A DNA stretch of 33,479 nt from Actinomycetes bacterium (GTDB lineage: Bacteria; Actinomycetota; Acidimicrobiia; Acidimicrobiales; RAAP-2): positions 1 to 33,479 of the forward strand of contig JAJYPY010000012.1 in assembly GCA_021794995.1 (NCBI GenBank), in the 5' to 3' direction. Below, in pieces: positions 13,848 to 30,729 of this stretch. The notes below the pieces were generated by a model, which did no database searches, had not been told where the DNA came from, and saw nothing but the letters and a program-made list of their open reading frames with translations. Position 1 is the stretch's first letter; the number at the start of each line of letters is the position of its first letter. The position numbers were made by a program, and so were the translations under genes.

Positions 13848-15236
13848 TCAGGTCGTCCCACGTCTCGCGACTGCACGGTCGCGCTTGTGGCGGTACATCG
13901 CGCGATCCGCCTTGGCGAGCAGCGCGTCGGGCCCGACATCGCCCTTGTCCGTGCTCACCCAGCCGATCGACGCGCCGACGTCGAATGCTTGCCCCCGGAC
14001 CCTGAACGGCGCGGAGAGCACCTTGCGCAGCCGCGACACCACGAGATCGCCATCGGGGAGCCTCTCGGCGGTCGCGTGCGCGATGACGAATTCGTCGCCT
14101 CCGAGTCGGGCCACGACGTCGTCACTGCGCACCGCGCCGCGCAGGCGTCGCGCGACCGCCCCGAGGACCTCGTCACCCATGTCGTGCCCGTAGTCGTCAT
14201 TGATGTGCTTGAAGTCGTCGAGGTCCATGTAGACGAGCGCAACCGAACCGCCGCGCCGTCCCAGCCCCTGGAGCATCCGTCGCAGCTCTTCGAGCAACAG
14301 GTAGCGATTGGCCAGGCCGGTGAGCGGGTCGTACAGCGCGTAGTGCGTGAGGCGCTGCTGCTCGATCCACTCTGCGGTCGTGTCTCGCATGACCACCAGC
14401 ACTCCCATCTGGTCCCCGATGCGAAACGGGCGTGCGGATGCGGCGACGTGACGCTGGCCCGCCCCGTGCTCCCCCACGGTGAGATGCGCCACGCACGCGT
14501 CGCCGTCGCGAAGCGTGAGCACGGCGGGGTGGTGGTCGTGGGCGAGCACGTGGCCGTCCTCGGTGCGCAGGGCCGTGGCCATCGGCAGCGGCGAGCCGAC
14601 GAGGGTCCGGTCGGGAGGCAGTCCGTGCAGGGCATCGGCTGCCCGATTGGCGAGCACCACGGTGCCCGACGCGTCGAGGCACATCACGCCATCGTCCAGA
14701 TGGGCGATCAGCTCGGTGGCGTCGATCGCGACGGCAGCGACCGCCCCGTTGGTGGCCACGGGGACCCCGCCGTCGTCTGCACCTCCTGTGTGCACCACGT
14801 GCGACGGGCGGCCGCCCGGTGCGGGCGAACCGTGCGGGAGGATCCGGGCGACCGCTGCCGCAATGCGTTCGAGGCCGGCGCGCTGGTGGTCGTCGGGCTC
14901 GGGCAGCCACGTGTCGACCACGCCGAGGAGGCCGAGCTGGGCGCTCCCTGCCCGCACCGGGACGACGACGCACGCCAAGGAGCGATCGGCCGACCCTGCC
15001 TCTGTCGACACCTCCGCGTTCCAAAAGAGCGCGTTGCCATGCGCTGCAGGATGGGCGAGGCAGCTGCGGGCGAGCGCTTCGATCCGCTCCACAGCGTCTT
15101 CGGGCGCCATGGCGTCCGCGGTCACGCGGTGCACGACACCTGTCATGCTCACGGCAAACGCCCCGAGTCCGAGGCACAGATCGAGCGCGGTCCGGAGCGC
15201 CTCGTCGACAGACTCGCCCACCTCACCCTCCGCCAT
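13848..15236 (-). CDS. GAF/PAS-GGDEF diguanylate cyclase
   Basis: YDPLTGLANRYLLLEELRRM...VALVYMDLDDFKHINDDYGHDMGDEVL...RSDDVVARLGGDEFVIAHA; PAS-like LIAHLDDGVMCLDASGTVVLANRAADAL. Confidence 0.93.
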   Translation of the reverse strand: MAEGEVGESVDEALRTALDLCLGLGAFAVSMTGVVHRVTADAMAPEDAVERIEALARSCLAHPAAHGNALFWNAEVSTEAGSADRSLACVVVPVRAGSAQLGLLGVVDTWLPEPDDHQRAGLERIAAAVARILPHGSPAPGGRPSHVVHTGGADDGGVPVATNGAVAAVAIDATELIAHLDDGVMCLDASGTVVLANRAADALHGLPPDRTLVGSPLPMATALRTEDGHVLAHDHHPAVLTLRDGDACVAHLTVGEHGAGQRHVAASARPFRIGDQMGVLVVMRDTTAEWIEQQRLTHYALYDPLTGLANRYLLLEELRRMLQGLGRRGGSVALVYMDLDDFKHINDDYGHDMGDEVLGAVARRLRGAVRSDDVVARLGGDEFVIAHATAERLPDGDLVVSRLRKVLSAPFRVRGQAFDVGASIGWVSTDKGDVGPDALLAKADRAMYRHKRDRAVARRGTT

Positions 15237-15434
15237 TGTTGCAACCGTAGTCGTGGCGATGGGGGGGCATCGAGGACGGCCGGACGCGTGCGGTGCGGGG
15301 CGTGCGAGGCCGCCGCACGGTGCGTCGGCGTCGCATGAAGGTCCACTTCTGCACCAACCCCGTGCCGTAGGATCGATGCCGAGGCGGCAGTGCGCAGCTG
15401 CGTACCAAGGGGATGATCGAGCGGGCACTGCAGC

Positions 15435-17021
15435 ATGCATCCCACGATCCGGAAGGGAAGCGTAGTGGTCGACAGGTCGTGCACGGCCGACGAGGAGATC
15501 TCCGCGGTCGCAAACGTGCTCCTTCAGGCGACCGGCGGCGTGGCCTGGGCGTACCAGGCCCTCGAGCACGTCGCGTCGCGCCATGGCCTCTCCGGGGCGT
15601 GGCTCGTCCTGCACCCAGAGCCCGGCGGCACCCAGCTCTTCTCCCTCCACCCAGACGCGGAGCCGTCCGCTGCGGCGGCGCAGCTCGTGCGACGGCCCGT
15701 CGGCGTCTACGGCGAGCCTGACGTCATCGACCCCGCCACGAGCACCGCAGTCGGCATGTTGTGCGACGCTGCCTTCCGCACGCACGCATCCGCCATGCGC
15801 GCGGCACTCGACACGACGGGGCTCGCCAGCAGCACCGTGATCGATGCGGCGCTCGCCCGGGCGACGGCGTGCGCCGCACGGTACGGATGGTCGTCGACCG
15901 CGGTGCTGCTCACGACGACGGGAGAAGGCGCGCCCGACGAGCGATGGGCGGCGCTCGCCGGGGCGCTGCGCCAGGCGCTGCGGTCGGGCGACGAGTGCGG
16001 CGTCGCGGGCTCCGGCACCGCCATCGCCATCTTGGGGAATGCCGGCCCCGACGCGGTCCGCCCGTTCATCGGGAGGGTCCGTGCCGCGTTGAACGCCGCA
16101 GGCTGGGAAGGAGCGGACCTCCACTGCGCCACGGCCAGCACGCCTCAAGAGACGGTCGACCCGGTGGAGCTCCGGCGACTGGCGGGCGAGCGGCTGGCAC
16201 AGATCGACGCCGTGGCCACGGGCACGAGCACGAGCACGAGCACGAGCGGAGTGTCGGGGTCGACACTCGAGCTCGAGCTTCGCCTCGTCCCCGGCGTCGT
16301 GTGCGTCGCCATGGGCTCCGACGCGCCAGGAGGGACCGTCACCATCGTCTGCACGTCGCAGAGCGATGCGCTCCACGACGAGTTGAACCGGCGCGTCCGT
16401 GCGCACCTCTCGGACGTTCCCCTGCGCGTCGTCGCGCTGAGCGACCATGGGCGCCCGCCGCACACCGCTGGACACGCCACCGACACCGCGCCGTCCGTCC
16501 GGAACACACGCACGTCACTAGGGAACGGGCACGGGCACGGGAACGGGCACAGTCACAGCGCGGCGCGCGCGGAGATGGCCGGAACCCGGCTGCTGTCGGC
16601 AACGGCACCAGGCGCACCGAGCGGCGCCACCGCAGCGGGGGGCACGTCACGGGTGACCCTGGTGGACGCGTCGTTCGACCCCGCGCGCGGCATCAGCCAG
16701 GTGTCGCTCGCATACGGGGCCGCACGAGGCACCGGGCGTGCTCCCGCGGGTCCGCTGGCCGGCGGTGCGCAAGCGACGCTGACGGCGCTCGGCGCCCTCG
16801 GAATGGACGTCCCCTTCTACCTCGTCTCCGCCGAACGCATGCAGGGCGTCCCGGGCGACGCGGTCGTCGTCGTGCTCGCCCCCCGAGAAGCGTCGTGCAC
16901 ATCGCACGGCACCGCGGAGCGCATCGGCGTCGCGACCGGCGCGCGCGACGTCGACGCCGCGTCCCGGGCGACGCTCGGCGCACTGAACCGCTTCCTTTCG
17001 AGAGGCGTGACCGCTTCGTGA
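15435..17021 (+). CDS. Uncharacterised protein with apparent degenerate GGDEF-like domain and SSR-encoded linkers
   Basis: Long ORF; RSGDECGVAGSGTAIAIL aligns with I-site/GGDEF register; TGTSTSTSTSG and GNGHGHGNGHSHS linkers; stop overlaps next start (GTGA). Confidence 0.75.
   Translation: MHPTIRKGSVVVDRSCTADEEISAVANVLLQATGGVAWAYQALEHVASRHGLSGAWLVLHPEPGGTQLFSLHPDAEPSAAAAQLVRRPVGVYGEPDVIDPATSTAVGMLCDAAFRTHASAMRAALDTTGLASSTVIDAALARATACAARYGWSSTAVLLTTTGEGAPDERWAALAGALRQALRSGDECGVAGSGTAIAILGNAGPDAVRPFIGRVRAALNAAGWEGADLHCATASTPQETVDPVELRRLAGERLAQIDAVATGTSTSTSTSGVSGSTLELELRLVPGVVCVAMGSDAPGGTVTIVCTSQSDALHDELNRRVRAHLSDVPLRVVALSDHGRPPHTAGHATDTAPSVRNTRTSLGNGHGHGNGHSHSAARAEMAGTRLLSATAPGAPSGATAAGGTSRVTLVDASFDPARGISQVSLAYGAARGTGRAPAGPLAGGAQATLTALGALGMDVPFYLVSAERMQGVPGDAVVVVLAPREASCTSHGTAERIGVATGARDVDAASRATLGALNRFLSRGVTAS
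16222..16245 (+). repeat. Hexanucleotide tandem repeat (GCACGA)4 inside a CDS
   Basis: GCACGA x4 encoding (Thr-Ser)n. Confidence 0.9.
16521..16550 (+). repeat. Imperfect hexanucleotide repeat (GGGAAC/GGGCAC) inside a CDS
   Basis: GGGAACGGGCACGGGCACGGGAACGGGCAC encoding GNGHGHGNGH. Confidence 0.85.
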
Positions 17022-19975
17022 CGCCATACCGGTACGGCGCCTCGTTCGTCGACCCGACGACCGGGCTCCGGTTCGAGATGCACCACCCGGCGAGTCGCCC
17101 CGATCGGTGGAGCGCGTACCTCGACGGCGCCGCCCGGGAATACGAGCGCTACGGGATCGGCGGGCTCGTCGACCTCCCCGAGCTGGAGCGCGGAGAGGGC
17201 GTCTCCTTGTTCTTCGTCGGCGTGGACGCCGACGACCGCGTCGTCGCGGGCCTCCGCTGCCACGGGCCGCTCGACGACGCGGCTGCGTCCGCAGCGCTCG
17301 CCGAGATGGCGGCATCTCCCGAGTGGCGCGACCACCAAGAGGCCGTGGCATCCATCTCGCCGTACGGGGTCGTGGAGATGAAAGGTGCCTGGCGTTCGAG
17401 GAGCGGCAACGGCAACCACGCGGTGACCGGGCCGATGGTGCGGTGCTGCGTGCACGCGATCGAGTGGCTCGGTGCCGAGGTGCTCCTCGCGGCGGTGGCG
17501 GATCGAATGGAGCCGATCCTCGCGAGCGTGGGCGGGATCATGATGGGCAACGAGGCGTCGCCCTACCCGACCGAGCGGTACAGGACGATCCTGACCGGGA
17601 TCCGCCGCGCCCGCTACCGCGAGCTGATCGACGACGAGCAGGCGAAACTCCTGCGCGAGGACGCCGAGCAGCTGAGGCGCCCGCCCGAGAACCAGGTCAC
17701 AACGGGGTGGCGGCCCGTCCTGTTGCACGCGGAACGCCGGGCGCACCGTCAGATCATCTCGAACCTGCGCGCCGACCCCGGCATCCACGTGATCGACGTC
17801 GCCGAGCGCCAGCGCGCGGAGCTGGTGGACCTGCTGCCCGTACCCGAGCAGGAGCTGGTGGACGAGCCCCCGGTCCATGTGTACTTCCCGTGGCGCAGGA
17901 CGGTCGTACGCATGCTCGGGCCGCGCGCGTTCTCGGCCGTGCGGCTCGACCGCAACCGCAATCGCATCACGCGCGCCGAACAGGATCGGCTGCGTCACCA
18001 GCGGGTGGGCATCGTCGGCCTCAGCGCAGGGCACGCGGCCGCGGCGGCCATCGCGCTCGAGGGCCTGTGCGGGGAGCTCAAGCTCGCCGACTTCGACGAG
18101 GTCGCGCTCACCAACCTGAACCGCCTGCCGGCGTCTGTCCTCGACATCGGTGTCAACAAGGCGGTGGTTGCGGCTCGCCGGGTGGCCGAGATCGACCCGT
18201 ACCTGTCTGTCGACGTGCTCAGCTCGGGACTCGACGCCGGCAACGTCGACGATTTCGTGGCCGGCCTCGACGTGCTCGTCGAAGAGTGCGACGACATCGC
18301 GATGAAGGTGCTCGTGCGCGAGGTGGCGCGTCGCCAGCACGTCGCGGTCGTCATGGAGACGAGCGACCGTGGCATGCTCGACGTCGAGCGGTTCGACCAG
18401 GAGCCGGATCGTCCCGTGCTCCACGGGCTCCTCGGGGACGTGCGGGCATCGTCGCTCGCGTCGCTGTCAACGACCGAGAAGATCCCCCACGTGCTCGCCA
18501 TCGTGGACGCGCCGAAGGCGTCTGCCCGTGGCGCTGCCTCCCTCGCGGAGATCGGCCGCACCCTGTCCACGTGGCCCCAGCTCGGGTCGGACGTCTCGCT
18601 CGGTGGTGCGACGATCGCGGCGACCGTGCGCCGGCTCGGTCTCGGCGAGCCCGTGCCGTCGGGGCGCGTTCGTATCGACCTCGAGACGATCGTCTCCTCC
18701 CTCGAGACACCTGTACCGCACGACAGCGACCCCGACGGCGGGCACGCGAGCCCGCGCGTGGTCGTCGGCGCCGCACCTGCGGCCGCGTCGTCCGTCCCGC
18801 CCGACCGCGAGCTCGCGATCGTCCACGCGGCCGCGATGGCCCCGTCATGCGGGAACGGACAGCCGTGGCGGTTCGAGCTCAGCAGCCGCGAGCTCGCCAT
18901 CGAGCTCGACAGGTCGAAGGGCTGCGGCACCATGGACGTCCGATCCCGCGCGAGCTACGTGGGGATCGGGGCCGCCCTCTTCAATGCGCGGGTCGCGGCG
19001 GCCGCGGGCTCACGCCTCGGGCCGACCGAGCTTTTCCCCGAGGGTCCGAACTCCGACGTCGTCGCGACGCTGGCGCTGGAGCGCTCGGCGGACGCGGAGC
19101 TCGCGGCGCTCTACGCCCCCATGCTCGAACGCTGCTCGAACCGCCGCCTCGGCACCCCCACGCCGCTCGACGTGGACGTCGTGGCCCGGCTCACCCGGGC
19201 GGCGTCGGAGGAGGGGGGCACGCTGCACCTCGTCACGGACCGCCAGCGCATGTTCGAGTGCGCGGACATCCTCGGCGCGACCGAGCGGGTCCGTTTCTTG
19301 ACGCCGGCGCTGCGCGAGGAGACCGTGCGGGAGCTGCGCTGGCCCGGCGACGACGTGCGCTCCGGGATCGACGTCGCGACGTTGGAGCTTTCCGGATCCG
19401 ACACCGGCGCGCTCGCGCTGCTGCGACGCGGAGACGCCATGGAGCTGCTCGAGCGCTGGGACGCAGGCGACGGGCTCGGCGACTACCTGAAAGGAGCCGT
19501 CCGCTCCAGCTCGGCACTCGCCTACGTCACCGTCGAGAGCAGCAGTCCCGCGTCGTACGTCACTGGCGGCATGGCCCTCGAGCGCGTCTGGATCGAGGCG
19601 CAGCGCGCAGGGCTCGCCGTCCAGGCCATCGGTCCGGCCTTCCTCTACGCCGTCCAGCAGGGAGATTACGACGCGCTCGTCGGCCCCCGGTGGTCCCCCA
19701 CCCTGCGGGAGCTCGCCGAACGCTTCCGCCGCGTCGTCGGCCTGGCGACGCGGACAGTCGGCGTGCTCGTCTTGCGACTCAGCCACGCCCCGCCGCCGAT
19801 GGTGCGCAGCGCGCGGCTCCCGCTCGACAGCATGCTCCGGCGTCGCGGCACCACGACATCTGGCGCAGCGCGACGTCTCCACGCGCACGAGGCGCCACGA
19901 GTCGGCGTCCCCCGCTCCCGCACGATCCAGGCCGGAGGGGGGGAGGAAGCAGACATCTGGCCTGATCAGGTGTAG
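17018..19975 (+). CDS. Rv1355c/MoeY-like fusion: N-terminal domain + ThiF/E1-like + nitroreductase-like
   Basis: HQRVGIVGLSAGHAAAAAIALEGLCGELKLADFDEVALTNLNR (ThiF/E1 Rossmann); AIVHAAAMAPSCGNGQPWRFELSSRELAIELDRSK (nitroreductase-like); GTG start in GTGA overlap with upstream gene. Confidence 0.88.
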   Translation: MTPYRYGASFVDPTTGLRFEMHHPASRPDRWSAYLDGAAREYERYGIGGLVDLPELERGEGVSLFFVGVDADDRVVAGLRCHGPLDDAAASAALAEMAASPEWRDHQEAVASISPYGVVEMKGAWRSRSGNGNHAVTGPMVRCCVHAIEWLGAEVLLAAVADRMEPILASVGGIMMGNEASPYPTERYRTILTGIRRARYRELIDDEQAKLLREDAEQLRRPPENQVTTGWRPVLLHAERRAHRQIISNLRADPGIHVIDVAERQRAELVDLLPVPEQELVDEPPVHVYFPWRRTVVRMLGPRAFSAVRLDRNRNRITRAEQDRLRHQRVGIVGLSAGHAAAAAIALEGLCGELKLADFDEVALTNLNRLPASVLDIGVNKAVVAARRVAEIDPYLSVDVLSSGLDAGNVDDFVAGLDVLVEECDDIAMKVLVREVARRQHVAVVMETSDRGMLDVERFDQEPDRPVLHGLLGDVRASSLASLSTTEKIPHVLAIVDAPKASARGAASLAEIGRTLSTWPQLGSDVSLGGATIAATVRRLGLGEPVPSGRVRIDLETIVSSLETPVPHDSDPDGGHASPRVVVGAAPAAASSVPPDRELAIVHAAAMAPSCGNGQPWRFELSSRELAIELDRSKGCGTMDVRSRASYVGIGAALFNARVAAAAGSRLGPTELFPEGPNSDVVATLALERSADAELAALYAPMLERCSNRRLGTPTPLDVDVVARLTRAASEEGGTLHLVTDRQRMFECADILGATERVRFLTPALREETVRELRWPGDDVRSGIDVATLELSGSDTGALALLRRGDAMELLERWDAGDGLGDYLKGAVRSSSALAYVTVESSSPASYVTGGMALERVWIEAQRAGLAVQAIGPAFLYAVQQGDYDALVGPRWSPTLRELAERFRRVVGLATRTVGVLVLRLSHAPPPMVRSARLPLDSMLRRRGTTTSGAARRLHAHEAPRVGVPRSRTIQAGGGEEADIWPDQV

Positions 19976-20013: not shown

Positions 20014-22335
20014 ATGGGGACGATGAGCGCGAAGCTACCCATCGGTGATGGCCGCGTCAGCGACGACAACCTGAGCGAGCTGCTGGCTGGCGCGATGCGC
20101 CTGCTGAAGGGTTCCGTCGCTGCCGAGTTCATCCCCGCCTCGTCGATGCACAGCCCGGTCGTCCTGGCGAACCTCACACATGCCAGTCTGGCGGCCTCCT
20201 TGCACACGGTCGCCGCCGCGCGGCTCGCAAGCGGCGGTCCGTGGGGAGAGGTTGCCGCGGATTCGTGGACGGCGTGGATCGAGCCTTCGATGGTCGCAAC
20301 CTCGTCCACCGGGGCTCCAAGCGAGGATACGGAAGAGCCCGCGGAGCTCGCCGGCGTCCTCGCCGTCGCCTTCAGCGACCTGACGTCCATCGGCGGCGAA
20401 GACGCGAAGACGCTGGAGCTGTTCGCGCGCCTGTGCGGGGCGGCCACGCTGCCCAGGGACCCGACAGGCGCGCTGGCGTCGCAGCGCCGTCTCGACGACC
20501 TGGTCTCGACGATCAGCGAGCGGCTGATGTCGACGACGGTCCCCACGCTGCAATCGGCGCTCGACTGGGCCGTCGAGACGCTGGCGCAGTTCCTGGGTGC
20601 CGATGTGGCGTTCCTCCGCCGCAACGACCACGCGCTCGGGATGAGCGTCCTCATGTCGTTCTATCCGCCGCGCGGGATCCCGCTCGAAGAGGACCCGCTC
20701 GGCATCGTGCCGTTCGACGCCGACCCGATCTTCGCCGCGACGAAGGACCTCAAGGTCCCCCTCATCGTCCGCAACGCAGCGGACACCGACGAGCGCTACC
20801 GCCAACGCGTGCGGGACGCCGCCGGTGCCGACGATTTCACGGGGGCTGGGGTACCCCTCGTGCTCGGCGACACCACGGTGGGCGTCTTGGCGTTCGTCTA
20901 CCTCTCGAAGTACACGTGGACCCAACAAGAAGTGAACGCGCTGCGGGCGATGGCCGCGCTGCTCGTCCAGCTCCTCCAGCGGGTCGACGCCGAAGAACGG
21001 CTCCGGCGCAACGCGCTGACCGACGACCTCACCGGCCTGCCCAACCGCCGCGCGCTGCTCGAGGAGGTGAGCAAGCGACACCTCGCGGGCACAGTGCCGC
21101 TCGCCCTGTTGTTCATCGACCTGGACCGGTTCAAGGTGATGAACGACCATCTCGGCCATGGAGCGGGCGACAAGGTGCTGCAGGTCATCGCCGACAGGAT
21201 CCGCACGTCGCTCCGGCCGGCCGACTTCGCCGCACGGCTGGGCGGCGACGAGTTCGTCGTCGTGCTGCACGACGCCGACGGGGGCCTTGCGGCCGTGGCC
21301 GCGGCCAACCGCCTCCTGGACCTGATCGTCTTGCCGATCGAAGTCCGAGGGCAGCGGGTCGCGCACACCGGAAGTGTCGGGATCGCGCTCTCCGAGAGCT
21401 CCACGACGACCGGCGAGGAGTTGCTCGGACAGGCCGACATCGCCCTGTACGCGGCCAAGTCTCGGGGCCGGAACCGCACCGTGGTGTTCGACCACGAGCT
21501 CGAAGGCCGCGTCGCCCAGCGCTCGAGCACCGAGCTCCTCCTGCGCCAGGCCCTCGCCGAGAACGAATTGCGCGTGCTGTACCAACCTGAATTCGACCTG
21601 CGCGACGGGCGGCTGCTGGCGGTGGAGGCGCTCGTCCGTTGGTACCGGCCGGGCAAGGGCCTCGTGGAGGCCAGCCAGTTCGTGCCGGTGGCAGAAGAGA
21701 CCCACCTCATCACCGACATCGACCGCTGGGTGCTCGACGAGGCCTGCGGGCAGCTCGCCGCGTGGCGCCGCAAGTACGGTGACATCAATCTCGTCATGCG
21801 GGTCAACGTCTCGCCCGCCCAGCTCGCGATCGCCGGGCTCGTCGGATCCGTCGGGGACTGCCTGCGCAGGTCCGGGTTGCCTCCCGGGCGGTTGTGCCTG
21901 GAGATCACCGAGCAGGCCGTCATCGAGGACGTCGAGCAGGCGGTCCGCGTGCTCCAAGACATCCGCTCGATGGGGGTGAAGCTCGCCATCGACGATTTCG
22001 GCACCGGCTTCAGTTCGATGAGCCAGCTGAAGAACCTGCCCGTCGACGTCCTCAAGATCGACAGAGTCTTCGTCGACCACATCTCGAGCGACCCGACCGA
22101 TCAAGCGATCGTGGACACGATCGTGCGGCTCGCCCGGGCGTTCAAGCTCGACGTCGTCGGCGAAGGTGTCGAGACGATGGACGATCTGGAGACCCTCGTG
22201 AGGCTCGGCTGTGTGCGTGCCCAGGGGTTCCTCCTGTCGCACCCCATCCCGGCCGACCAGGTGGAGCCGCTCATCGAGCGGGGGGGCACCGATCTCACCA
22301 AGCTGCCTGCCACGGTGGCACCCGCCCGCCGCTAG
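20014..22335 (+). CDS. GAF-GGDEF-EAL bifunctional c-di-GMP enzyme (Rv1354c-like)
   Basis: TDDLTGLPNRRALLEE...RPADFAARLGGDEFVVVLHD (GGDEF, I-site RPAD); LLAVEALVRW (EAL), DDFGTGFSSMSQLKNLPVDVLKIDRVFV. Confidence 0.96.
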   Translation: MGTMSAKLPIGDGRVSDDNLSELLAGAMRLLKGSVAAEFIPASSMHSPVVLANLTHASLAASLHTVAAARLASGGPWGEVAADSWTAWIEPSMVATSSTGAPSEDTEEPAELAGVLAVAFSDLTSIGGEDAKTLELFARLCGAATLPRDPTGALASQRRLDDLVSTISERLMSTTVPTLQSALDWAVETLAQFLGADVAFLRRNDHALGMSVLMSFYPPRGIPLEEDPLGIVPFDADPIFAATKDLKVPLIVRNAADTDERYRQRVRDAAGADDFTGAGVPLVLGDTTVGVLAFVYLSKYTWTQQEVNALRAMAALLVQLLQRVDAEERLRRNALTDDLTGLPNRRALLEEVSKRHLAGTVPLALLFIDLDRFKVMNDHLGHGAGDKVLQVIADRIRTSLRPADFAARLGGDEFVVVLHDADGGLAAVAAANRLLDLIVLPIEVRGQRVAHTGSVGIALSESSTTTGEELLGQADIALYAAKSRGRNRTVVFDHELEGRVAQRSSTELLLRQALAENELRVLYQPEFDLRDGRLLAVEALVRWYRPGKGLVEASQFVPVAEETHLITDIDRWVLDEACGQLAAWRRKYGDINLVMRVNVSPAQLAIAGLVGSVGDCLRRSGLPPGRLCLEITEQAVIEDVEQAVRVLQDIRSMGVKLAIDDFGTGFSSMSQLKNLPVDVLKIDRVFVDHISSDPTDQAIVDTIVRLARAFKLDVVGEGVETMDDLETLVRLGCVRAQGFLLSHPIPADQVEPLIERGGTDLTKLPATVAPARR

Positions 22336-25113: not shown

Positions 25114-26115
25114 ATGAAGATCGACGGCACGATCGGGTTCGACCCGACCGGCATCTCCGCGGCCGCCCGGCGGCTCGAAGCGGCCGGGTACGACGGGGTC
25201 TGGGCACCTGAGACCGGCCGCGATCCCTTCTTGCCATTGGCGATCGCGGCGGAGGCGACCGAGCGGATCGAGCTGGCCACGGGCATCGCCGTGGCATTCG
25301 CCCGCAATCCCATGACCCTCGCGATGGCGTCGAACGACCTGCACCAGCTGTCCAAGGGGCGCTTCATCTTGGGGCTCGGGTCCCAGATCAAGCCCCACAT
25401 CACCAAGCGGTTCTCCATGCCGTGGTCCCACCCGGCACCGAGGATGCGCGAGCTCATCCTCGCGATCCGCGCGATCTGGAAGTCCTGGGAGACGGGCGGC
25501 GCACTGGACTTTCGCGGCGACTTCTACACCCACACGCTCATGACCCCGTTCTTCAACCCGGGGCCCAACCCCTACGGGAATCCCAAGATCCTGCTCGCCG
25601 CCGTCGGGGAGCACATGGCCGAGGTGGCAGGCGAAGCGGGTGACGGCCTCCTGGTCCACCCCTTCACGACGGCGCGCTACCTGCGCGAGATCAGCCTCCC
25701 CGCGCTCGAGCGCGGCGCGGCGAGGGCGGGCAAGACGCGCGGCGACCTCACGGTCGCGCTCCCCGGCTTCGTGGTGACCGGGGCAACGGAGCACGAGATG
25801 GTGGCCCACGCCAAGGCGGCAAAGGCGCAGCTTGCGTTCTACGGGTCCACGCCCGCGTACCGCCCTGTGCTCGAGCTCCACGGGTGGGGAGAGCTCCAGA
25901 GCGAGCTCCACGCCCGCTCCAAGCGCGGGGAGTGGGAGGAGATGGGTGAGCTCGTCGACGACGAGGTGCTCGAGGCGTTCGCCGTCGTCGCCCCGCCCGA
26001 GCGCGTGGCGACGGCCGTGCTCGAGCGCTTCAGCGGGCTGGTCGACCGATTCAGCTTCTACGCCGCGCTCCCCGCTCCCGACATGGCCGAGGTGATCGCC
26101 ACCTTCACGAGATGA
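25114..26115 (+). CDS. LLM-class (probably F420-dependent) oxidoreductase
   Basis: AARRLEAAGYDGVWAPETGRDPFLPLAIAAEATERIELATGIAVAFARNPMTLA...SKGRFILGLGSQ. Confidence 0.9.
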   Translation: MKIDGTIGFDPTGISAAARRLEAAGYDGVWAPETGRDPFLPLAIAAEATERIELATGIAVAFARNPMTLAMASNDLHQLSKGRFILGLGSQIKPHITKRFSMPWSHPAPRMRELILAIRAIWKSWETGGALDFRGDFYTHTLMTPFFNPGPNPYGNPKILLAAVGEHMAEVAGEAGDGLLVHPFTTARYLREISLPALERGAARAGKTRGDLTVALPGFVVTGATEHEMVAHAKAAKAQLAFYGSTPAYRPVLELHGWGELQSELHARSKRGEWEEMGELVDDEVLEAFAVVAPPERVATAVLERFSGLVDRFSFYAALPAPDMAEVIATFTR

Positions 26116-28588
26116 CGACGTTCACGAGGCGAGGCGCGCGTACCACGACACGTGCGGGCTCGGTTCCACCGAGCACGCCGGCGATCCGGGGTGAGGCAAG
26201 GGCTGCGGACCGTGCCTCCTCCTCGCCGATGGTGGAGGAGACTTGGAGGCGATCCCTCACCTTGCCGTTCACCTGAACCACCATCGTCACGGTCTCCTCG
26301 GCCACGAGCTCAGGGTCGAACGTCGGCCAGGGACGGGCGTGCAAGCGGTCTGGGTGGCGCCGCTCCCACAGCTCGGCGGTCACGTGGGGGGCCATGGGCG
26401 CAAGGAGGTGCAGCAGCGCGTCGACGCCGTCGTTGAGCACGTCTGCATGGGGATCGTCGCGGGCGTAGCGCTGCAGCACGTTCACCTGCTCCATGCAGTG
26501 CGCCACGGCCGTGTTGTACGACCATCGGTCGATGTCCGAAGTGACCCGTGCGATCGTGCGGTGCGTGGCCCGGCGGACCGCGAGGTCAGCCGGGGTGAGG
26601 TCGCCCGTGCGAACTTGCGAGCCAGACGTCCCGGTCCCGTCGGCGAGGCGCCAGAGCCTCTCGAGGAAGCGGCCGCATCCGTCGATGACCTCGTCGGTCT
26701 GGTCCGTCCAGTCGAAGTCGTCGGTCGGGGGACCGACGAAGAGGTGGAACAACCGCAGCGCATCGGCACCCACCGTCTCGTAATAGCGAGCAGGAGCGAT
26801 AAGGTTCCCCTTGGACTTCGACATCTTCGATCCGTCCATGCGGATCATCCCCTGGGTGAACAGGCGCCGGAACGGCTCGCGCGAAAGATCGGGGGGTGCC
26901 AGGCCCACGTCGATGAGGGCCCGCGTGAAGAACCGCGCGTACATGAGATGCAAGATCGCGTGCTCGATCCCGCCGATGTACTGGTCGACGGGCATCCAGT
27001 GCACCACCGCGCGCGGGTCGAACGGCTGTTCGGCGTCGAACGGATCGCAGAAACGCAGGAAGTACCAGCTCGAGTCCACGAAGGTGTCCATCGTGTCGGT
27101 CTCGCGTTCCGCCGGGCCGCCGCAGATCGGGCACGTCGTACGCAAGAATCCCTCGTGGTGCGCGAGCGGCGACTGGCCGGTGGGAAGGAACTCCACGTCG
27201 TCGGGGGCCAGCACGGGAAGCTCATGTTCGGGCACCGGGACAGGCCCGTGCGCCGGGCAGTGGACCACCGGGATCGGGCAGCCCCAGAACCGCTGGCGCG
27301 AGACGAGCCAATCGCGCAGGCGGTAGTTGACCTTGCGCCGGCCGCGGCCCTCGCGCTCGAGGAACTCGATCGCGCGCTGCTTGGCCTCGACGACGCCGAG
27401 CCCGTCGAGGAAGCCGCTGTTGATCTTCACCCCGTCGCCGCTGTACGCCTCGCCGCCCTGCTCGTCCCACCCCGCCGGAGGCGAGACGGTGCGCACGATC
27501 GGGAGCCCGTAGAGCGTGGCGAACACCCAGTCACGCTGGTCCTCTGCAGGCACGGCCATGATCGCCCCGGTGCCGTAGCCCATGAGCACGTAATCGGCGA
27601 CGTAGAGGGGGACCGGCTGCCCGTTGAAGGGGTTGACCACGTGGCTCCCGGTGAACGCCCCGCGCTTTTCGAGCGCCGGGCCGGCCTCCGTCGAGGCCAT
27701 CCGCTCGATCTCTGACTCCCCGGCCACCCGGGTGCGCAGATCGTCGACTGCCGCACGGCACGCGTCGGTCGTGACCACGTCGACGAGCGGGTGATCAGGA
27801 GCCATGACGGCGTAGGTCATGCCGAAGGTCGTGTCCGGGCGCGTCGTGAAGACCGTGAGGGTGAGATCAGGATGTCCCACCACCTCGAGGTCGATCTCGG
27901 CCCCTTCTGACCGCCCGATCCAATTCCGCTGCATGACCTTCACGCGCTCGGGCCACTCCAAGTCGTCGAGCGAGGCGAGGAGCTCGTCGGCGTAGGAGGT
28001 GATGCGAAAGAACCACTGCTCGAGATCCCGGACGACCACGACGTCGCCGGACCGCTCACAGGTCCCGTCGGCGAGGACCTGCTCGTTGGCGAGGACCGTC
28101 TGGCACCCCGGGCACCAGTTGACCGGTGCGTGCGCGCGATAGGCGAGACCCGCCTCCAAGAGGCGCAGGAAGATCAGCTGGGTCCAGTGGATGTAGCTCG
28201 GGTCGTGACTGCGGACCTCGCGGCGCCAGTCGTAGACGGCGCCGAGACGGACGAGTGACTCCTTCAGCTCCGCGATCCGCGCGTCGGTGAAGGTGCGGGG
28301 ATGGGTGCCCGTGCGGATCGCCGCGTTCTCCGCGGGCAGCCCGAAGGAGTCGAAGCCGAGCGGGGAGAGCACGGCGTTACCCCGCATCGTCTGGTAGCGC
28401 ACGACGAGATCGCCGAACGTGTAGTTCCGCACGTGGCCCTGGTGGGCCGGTCCCGAGGGGTAGGGGTACATGCACAGCGCGTAGAACGGCGGGCGCGGGT
28501 CGTCGTTGTCGACCTCGTAGGTCCCCTCGTCCCGCCATCGAGCCTGCCACTTCTGCTCGATGGCGCCCACGTCATAGGCGCGCGCCAT
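26105..28588 (-). CDS. leuS: Leucyl-tRNA synthetase
   Basis: MYPYPSGPAHQGHVRNYTFGDLVVRY (HIGH-type), DGSKMSKSKGN (KMSKS), editing domain; start MARAYDVGAIEQKWQ. Confidence 0.97.
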   Translation of the reverse strand: MARAYDVGAIEQKWQARWRDEGTYEVDNDDPRPPFYALCMYPYPSGPAHQGHVRNYTFGDLVVRYQTMRGNAVLSPLGFDSFGLPAENAAIRTGTHPRTFTDARIAELKESLVRLGAVYDWRREVRSHDPSYIHWTQLIFLRLLEAGLAYRAHAPVNWCPGCQTVLANEQVLADGTCERSGDVVVVRDLEQWFFRITSYADELLASLDDLEWPERVKVMQRNWIGRSEGAEIDLEVVGHPDLTLTVFTTRPDTTFGMTYAVMAPDHPLVDVVTTDACRAAVDDLRTRVAGESEIERMASTEAGPALEKRGAFTGSHVVNPFNGQPVPLYVADYVLMGYGTGAIMAVPAEDQRDWVFATLYGLPIVRTVSPPAGWDEQGGEAYSGDGVKINSGFLDGLGVVEAKQRAIEFLEREGRGRRKVNYRLRDWLVSRQRFWGCPIPVVHCPAHGPVPVPEHELPVLAPDDVEFLPTGQSPLAHHEGFLRTTCPICGGPAERETDTMDTFVDSSWYFLRFCDPFDAEQPFDPRAVVHWMPVDQYIGGIEHAILHLMYARFFTRALIDVGLAPPDLSREPFRRLFTQGMIRMDGSKMSKSKGNLIAPARYYETVGADALRLFHLFVGPPTDDFDWTDQTDEVIDGCGRFLERLWRLADGTGTSGSQVRTGDLTPADLAVRRATHRTIARVTSDIDRWSYNTAVAHCMEQVNVLQRYARDDPHADVLNDGVDALLHLLAPMAPHVTAELWERRHPDRLHARPWPTFDPELVAEETVTMVVQVNGKVRDRLQVSSTIGEEEARSAALASPRIAGVLGGTEPARVVVRAPRLVNVVIS

Positions 28589-28677
28589 GGCCGGCGATGC
28601 TACCGCCGGGCGACGGGGGTCCCTCGCCCGCAGCATTGGCCTGCGTTGGCGGCTGGTAACCTGAGCGCTCGCATCCC

Positions 28678-29562: not shown

Positions 29563-30729
29563 CTACCCCAGCAGACTCGCGCTGAGGGCCGCGCCCGCCT
29601 CTTCCGCCATCCCCGGCATGACGTGCGCGTAGATCCCAAGCGTGATCGTAGGTGACGCGTGGCCGAGCAACTCGGAGACCACCTTCACGGGGACGCCGGA
29701 TGCGAGCATCAAGGACGCCGCAGTGTGACGCGTGTCGTGCAGCCTGATCCTCGGCAGCCCGAGCGCCGTCACCTTCGCGGCGAACCACTCCGACAGGGTG
29801 TCCGGGTGGTGGGGGGTCCCAAGCTCGTCGGAGAAGAGCCAGCCGCCCGTCCCGTAGGCGCTCCCGGCTGCCAGCTTCTCTTGGGCTTGGCGGGACTTGT
29901 GCGCCCGGAGGAGCGCCACGAGCTGTCCGTCGAGGGGGACGCTGCGCCGTCCGGCCGCCGTCTTCGGAGAGGACTCGACTGCCTTCCCGTCCACCACCAC
30001 GCGGGTCTTGCGGATGCGCACCGTTGCCCCGTCGAGGTCGACGTCATCCCAACGTAGGCCAGCCACTTCGCCACGTCGGAGCCCGCGGGTGAGGAGCATC
30101 GCCCAGCACCACGCGAGCCGGTCATCACGGGTCGCCGCGAGGAACGCCCGGGCGTCATCGGTAGACCATGCATGCATCGCGTCCGCGCTGGTGCCGCGGG
30201 GACGCTTGACGCCGGCGATCGGGTTGCGGCCGACGAGGCCGTTCTCCGTCGCCCACTGGGTCGCGGCCTTGAGGACGCCAACCGCGAGCTGCGCCGAGCG
30301 AGGCGAAAGGCCACTGCGGCCCGCGGCACTCTTCGTGGTGCGCAGGGTCTCCACCATCTTCGTGACGTCCTTCGGCGTCAGAGCGGGGACCCGCACGGCA
30401 CCGAGGTTCGGTACGATCCACGAGTCGACCACGTTGCGGTATTGATCGAGGGTCGCGGGGCGGAGTTCACGGGACCGCTGCGCGGGGAGCCAGTGCTCCT
30501 CGAGGAGCTGTTTGACCGTGAGCGCGGTGTCCTTCCGCCAAGAGCCATCCTGCACCGAGCCGACGATCGAGTTGAGGTACTCGCGTGCACTGTCGCCCTT
30601 CGGCGGCCGGGCGGGCTCCTTGCGGACGAAGCCGCCTCGGGAGTGTTGGACGCGCTTCCCAGTGGCCGGGTCCACAGTCGACCAGTACGCCGTCCACGTG
30701 CTGCCACGCTGCCTTATGAATCCCATCAC
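29563..30729 (-). CDS. int: Tyrosine recombinase/integrase
   Basis: Arg TRGLRRGEVAGLRWDDVDLD, HDTRHTAASLMLASG, LGHASPTITLGIYAHV (R...HxxR...Y); N-terminal SAM-like core-binding domain. Confidence 0.96.
   Translation of the reverse strand: MMGFIRQRGSTWTAYWSTVDPATGKRVQHSRGGFVRKEPARPPKGDSAREYLNSIVGSVQDGSWRKDTALTVKQLLEEHWLPAQRSRELRPATLDQYRNVVDSWIVPNLGAVRVPALTPKDVTKMVETLRTTKSAAGRSGLSPRSAQLAVGVLKAATQWATENGLVGRNPIAGVKRPRGTSADAMHAWSTDDARAFLAATRDDRLAWCWAMLLTRGLRRGEVAGLRWDDVDLDGATVRIRKTRVVVDGKAVESSPKTAAGRRSVPLDGQLVALLRAHKSRQAQEKLAAGSAYGTGGWLFSDELGTPHHPDTLSEWFAAKVTALGLPRIRLHDTRHTAASLMLASGVPVKVVSELLGHASPTITLGIYAHVMPGMAEEAGAALSASLLG

Follow-up and report, generated by a model that had tools for sequence, protein, structure and literature searches.

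The gene at positions 17018-19975 (+ strand) of the window, the whole analysed stretch of 33,479 nucleotides, is best explained as coding for an N-acyl-oxazolone synthase contained in one polypeptide, probably of the tryptazolone type and acting inside a c-di-GMP signalling module; we consider this reading likely. The gene, referred to here as trzAS, begins with GTG and encodes a protein of 985 aa in which an N-acyltransferase, a ThiF-type cyclase and an FMN oxidase are fused. Its reading frame is open throughout, and a single copy is present in its own genome (2.64 Mb, 231 contigs). The GTG start was accepted because the gene overlaps the upstream gene by 4 nt (GTGA/ATGA), and an overlap of the (A/G)TGA form recurs in 9 of the 12 relatives checked. 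The named records closest to it are MAGs labelled Acidimicrobiales/Acidimicrobiaceae and 'Actinomycetes', and the window therefore probably belongs to Acidimicrobiia; the closest relative shares 72% identity over the core. The final ~40 aa (19853-19975) are unconserved in relatives and resemble read-through low-complexity sequence.

This kind of enzyme has been known since 2025, when Kleetz et al. (December 2025; PMC12856293) described TrzA (Rv1356c), which N-acylates tryptophan, and TrzS (Rv1355c), in which a ThiF domain cyclises N-acyl-tryptophan with ATP and a nitroreductase-type domain carries out desaturation with FMN and O2, the end product of both proteins being an N-acyl tryptazolone. 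In TrzS, the D217A exchange abolished product formation, and R540A impaired the desaturation, causing the cyclised intermediate to build up (PMC12856293). By its sequence, the window protein belongs to the Rv1355c/TrzS family. The NCBIfam model 'Rv1355c family protein' (NF005901) matches aa 226-940 with 889.9 bits against a cut-off of 476 (E=1e-267), and the fusion of a ThiF domain to an Acg-like FMN oxidase domain, by which membership of this family was judged, is found in the protein. Pfam places ThiF at aa 311-446 (17948-18355, + strand; 7e-22) and gives a weak nitroreductase match; the Acg/nitroreductase-type FMN oxidase domain covers aa ~591-940 (18788-19837, + strand). A full-length model built from 54 sequences reached a pLDDT of 88.7, with a disordered linker at aa 567-587. 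In the Foldseek search with this model, the M. smegmatis Acg homologue 2ymv came first (5.8e-12), followed by AclA (9egb) and by E. coli ThiF (1zfn) and MoeB; 2ymv and 1zfn are also the structures used by the authors of the TrzS study (PMC12856293). All three residues that were mutated in TrzS (PMC12856293) appear to be conserved. The column of window D425, which aligns with TrzS D217, holds D in all 35 aligned sequences. In one homologue (L132) an R follows that D at +323 and a Q at +434, the distances at which R540 and Q651 follow D217 in TrzS(Msmeg), and these two residues of L132 align to R759 and Q869 of the window protein; this mapping was made by spacing through L132, without the M. smegmatis sequence.

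The N-terminal part of the protein (aa 1-225; 17018-17692, + strand) carries a predicted FeeM/TrzA-like N-acyltransferase domain. Searches of this region against Pfam, NCBIfam and PDB sequences gave no usable match, even with a profile of 58 sequences, and the domain was identified by structure comparison alone. The AlphaFold2 model of aa 1-225, built from the 58 sequences, had a mean pLDDT of 93.4, and its best Foldseek match in the PDB was the N-acyl amino acid synthase FeeM (2g0b, E 8.5e-8), with the AHL synthases BjaI and TofI ranking lower. The likeness to FeeM is one of fold, at 11-14% identity, and, unlike FeeM, the window domain is fused to a cyclase and a desaturase. The domain would be expected, from its modelled fold, to transfer acyl groups to amino acids. 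In Rhodococcus maanshanensis (L112) and in three Phytoactinopolyspora (L115, L117, L118), the same N-terminal sequence forms a gene of its own that immediately precedes trzS, and in all four loci trzS is followed by GGDEF-EAL, which matches the locus-number order Rv1356c-Rv1355c-Rv1354c. Because the FeeM-fold N-terminus stands elsewhere as a separate gene upstream of trzS, the window protein is a TrzA-TrzS fusion, and its N-terminus is the partner N-acyltransferase TrzA. The fused state was found in 77 of the 77 Acidimicrobiia-type loci counted, including L109, which one reading showed as split (a probable frameshift) and the profile scan as fused. Only two changes are needed to account for the fused and split states on a quick tree of 87 cores. 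The fusion itself was not found in the literature searched.

Rv1355c has been annotated as MoeY, as cited in the first-pass annotation, and the ThiF-fold domain at aa 311-446 would agree with a MoeY/MoeB-type molybdopterin or a ThiF-type sulphur-carrier adenylyltransferase. This role was rejected, and we regard it as extremely improbable. The NCBIfam equivalogs remain far under their cut-offs on the 985-aa protein (MoeB 60.5 of 266 and 50.6 of 376.55; ThiF 67 of 159), no zinc CxxC pairs were found in the whole 985 aa, and no ThiS/MoaD gene is present on the contig of the window, the four ThiS-family genes of the genome being located on other contigs. The acyltransferase fusion and the published TrzS activity (PMC12856293) also speak against it. 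The first-pass annotation had itself doubted the molybdopterin label, and this doubt was borne out, together with its remarks on an atypical glycine motif (VGLSAGHAAA is present in the ThiF-domain protein) and on an acyltransferase-like N-terminus, which structure prediction of the domains, as proposed there, identified as FeeM-like. Its description of an E1-like/flavoenzyme of unknown substrate has become out of date, since Rv1355c is TrzS and acts on N-acyl-tryptophan (PMC12856293). The TrzA-TrzS fusion and the gene at 15435-17021, described below, had escaped it.

In the proposed reaction sequence, the FeeM-like domain would first acylate the amine of an aromatic amino acid, most likely tryptophan, with a short chain taken from acyl-CoA. 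The ThiF domain would then adenylate the carboxylate with ATP and close the five-membered oxazolone ring, and with such an adenylation neither a protein carrier nor a zinc CxxC would be needed. Finally, the FMN domain would desaturate the product using O2. These steps were shown biochemically for mycobacterial TrzA/TrzS; for the window protein they are suggested by analogy, through family, fold and residues, and tryptophan as the substrate and an oxazolone as the product of this very protein are presumed on the same grounds. TrzA and TrzS (Rv1356c and Rv1355c; PMC12856293) and the window share the family, the three activities as judged from domain content, and the gene order followed by a GAF-GGDEF-EAL gene. 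The window differs in having one fused polypeptide and two additional genes, one a divergent GGDEF gene and the other the coupled gene with a degenerate GGDEF. The uncharacterised NCBIfam model PRK14852 (NF011425, 989 positions, hypothetical protein) resembles the window protein in length and may share its layout, with the oxidase region at a near-equal offset (protein 599-782, model 617-801), but its score of 100.8 bits lies far under the cut-off of 1337. Literature searches on AclA (9egb) and on an acyl amino acid synthase with GGDEF returned nothing relevant.

Alternatively, the synthase could convert tyrosine, phenylalanine or another amino acid into an oxazolone or a dehydro-N-acyl amino acid that serves as a membrane or stress lipid, with c-di-GMP controlling its production and the product being no signal. 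We consider this possible, though rather doubtful. The related TyzACB (Rv2336-Rv2338c) and OxzAB (Pseudoalteromonas rubra) pathways, which are specific for tyrosine and phenylalanine and yield tyrazolones (PMC10404671), likewise combine an N-acyltransferase, a ThiF cyclase and an FMN oxidase to form acyl-oxazolones, and stieleriacine-type clusters with ThiF and nitroreductase genes give dehydrotyrosines (PMC12479983). The coupled degenerate-GGDEF protein would also fit a control of the synthase by c-di-GMP. The TyzACB and OxzAB systems consist of two or three separate proteins and fall into another ThiF cluster (PMC12856293). Against the alternative, the window sequence falls in the Rv1355c/TrzS family, with other models far under their cut-offs, and the GAF or membrane sensor domain of the c-di-GMP partner suggests that the partner receives an input.

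The trzAS gene is embedded in a set of c-di-GMP genes. On the + strand, the 528-aa gene at 15435-17021 overlaps trzAS by 4 nt (GTGA), and trzAS is followed after 38 nt by a gene for a GAF-GGDEF-EAL protein (20014-22335; 773 aa) in which the GGDEF, RxxD and EAL motifs are intact. This is the counterpart of the bifunctional Rv1354c (MtbDGC; PMC2994820), which it resembles in domain order and in its place beside trzS and from which it differs in length (773 aa against 623 aa), the N-terminus in the window being longer. On the - strand, a divergent GAF-PAS-GGDEF diguanylate cyclase gene lies at about 13848-15236 (462 aa from the probable true start). A larger ORF of 875 aa (13848-16475, - strand) was rejected as a candidate for this GGDEF gene; its N-terminal ~413 residues are probably antisense of the + strand gene 15435-17021. 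The 985-aa fusion thus really lies between c-di-GMP genes, as had been claimed at first pass. Its own genome contains only 5 GGDEF domains in 2.64 Mb, which corresponds to a chance expectation of 0.015 per 8-kb stretch, and two of them flank trzAS. The adjoining rv1354c and rv1357c genes for c-di-GMP turnover in M. tuberculosis have already been pointed out (PMC12856293).

Comparative genomics strongly supports a link between trzS and a c-di-GMP module. When the count is restricted to loci flanked by at least 4 kb on each side, a GGDEF domain was present within 4 kb in 46/46 Acidimicrobiia-type loci, 4/4 other named loci, 7/8 loci of the phylum sample and 25/25 trzS loci of the second family (Mycobacteriales-type). 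Among the genomes with known GGDEF counts, 31 of 32 have a GGDEF domain within 4 kb, and 0.52 would be expected by chance. In seven genomes (G134, G331, G350, G377, G381, G398, G410) the neighbour is the sole GGDEF gene. Of 61 relatives, the 19 that have the N-terminal region of the GAF-GGDEF-EAL protein are precisely those with full-length trzS, and in the second family this region was found in 35/51 genomes with trzS versus 4/70 others, these four carrying the GAF-GGDEF-EAL gene without trzS. The co-occurrence analysis, named beforehand as a possible refutation of the conserved c-di-GMP link, therefore ran in favour of the association. The breadth of this link was not found in the literature searched.

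Related genomes share ancestry, so these counts are non-independent and the Fisher values overstate independence. Most loci do come from related genomes, and the c-di-GMP neighbourhood might be an inherited gene order devoid of functional meaning, an explanation to which three plasmid copies of trzS lacking a c-di-GMP neighbour would also lend some weight. Because of the shared ancestry behind the counts, more weight rests on the synteny control and on the partner swaps. Only close kin retain the remaining flanking genes (LepA, APH, PAC2, luciferase-like, LeuRS and others), which were found in 0/63 other Acidimicrobiia-type loci and 0-3/37 further out. Moreover, the kind of partner differs between groups: in one group the GGDEF partner has 4-7 predicted membrane segments where others have the GAF domain, and the partner type switches at least 4 times on the tree of cores. 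Taken with the joint presence and absence of trzS and the GAF-GGDEF-EAL gene and with the genomes in which the neighbour is the only GGDEF gene, this makes a merely inherited order very unlikely.

The three exceptional copies are located on mycobacterial plasmids (L169-L171), where trzA and GGDEF are both absent within 5 kb. On these plasmids, from Mycolicibacterium sp. TY66, M. dioxanotrophicus and M. fortuitum, the surroundings of trzS are conserved and include cytochrome P450, TetR and dienelactone hydrolase genes. Both trzA and GGDEF are present with the Rhodococcus plasmid copies, and at L122 GGDEF-EAL lies 6.3 kb off, beside trzA. ThiF-only relatives in the second family (L151-L161) adjoin a gene for GGDEF or GGDEF-EAL and, in many cases, one that is TrzA-like; no FMN oxidase was found within about 9 kb of them, apart from a weak partial match in L158, and these TrzS-like ThiF proteins, having no fused FMN oxidase, may represent a cyclase-only variant. 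On a plasmid of Streptomyces sp. NBC_01431 (L174), a TrzS-like ThiF domain occurs in a 622-aa protein, the gene of which is directly followed by one for a beta-ketoacyl-ACP synthase III.

The degenerate-GGDEF gene overlapping trzAS (15435-17021, + strand) is newly recognised. A Pfam search of its 528-aa product matched no model; the protein carries a degenerate GGDEF motif (GSGTA), an RxGD I-site and a C-terminal domain. Homologues are present in 12/13 close kin and in 54/63 other Acidimicrobiia-type loci. In the wider clade the counterpart consists of two adjacent genes, usually downstream of GAF-GGDEF-EAL, of which one encodes a GGDEF protein, in most cases with the motif intact, and the other a protein of ~200 aa that belongs to no family. 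In the clade of the window the two are fused and placed upstream of trzAS, and the GGDEF motif has been lost, whereas every aligned homologue retains the RxGD I-site. Such loss of the active site together with retention of the I-site characterises c-di-GMP receptors of the degenerate-GGDEF type, PelD and PopA among them. Because its GGDEF motif is degenerate while the RxGD I-site is conserved, the 528-aa protein is a candidate c-di-GMP receptor of the PelD/PopA-like kind. Its C-terminal ~125 aa (16632-17018) are conserved and belong to no Pfam family, and they correspond to the separate ~200-aa gene of other Acidimicrobiia-type loci.

In the proposed module, the adjoining GAF-GGDEF-EAL protein probably detects the product, or a cue related to it, by its GAF domain and sets the level of c-di-GMP, which the coupled protein with the degenerate GGDEF may in turn read back at the synthase. 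The GAF domain as sensor, the feedback via the upstream protein, and the direction and ligand of the signalling are suggested by this arrangement. More tentatively, N-acyl oxazolones might be intracellular or cell-to-cell signals of Actinomycetota, with synthase and receptor as neighbours, the oxazolone or its N-acyl precursor being sensed by the GAF or the multi-pass membrane domain and passed on to c-di-GMP. If true, an acyltransferase of the AHL-synthase fold would feed c-di-GMP directly, the degenerate-GGDEF protein would close a feedback loop on the synthase, and the signal reading would extend to the Rv1354c-Rv1356c cluster. It is rare for the synthase to be found without an adjoining c-di-GMP gene, and this holds across actinobacterial groups in which the sensors differ in kind. 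The physiological role of acyl-oxazolones, described as a major unresolved question (PMC12856293), hence becomes a specific one, namely whether the product alters the activity of the neighbour. For the GAF domain of Rv1354c, to which no ligand was found assigned in the literature searched, the reading also suggests one, and the natural three-domain fusion offers a single-protein system in which the chemistry can be studied. Further downstream in the window, a phage-type integrase gene (29563-30729, - strand) lies near the leucyl-tRNA synthetase gene (26105-28636) and may belong to a small mobile element.
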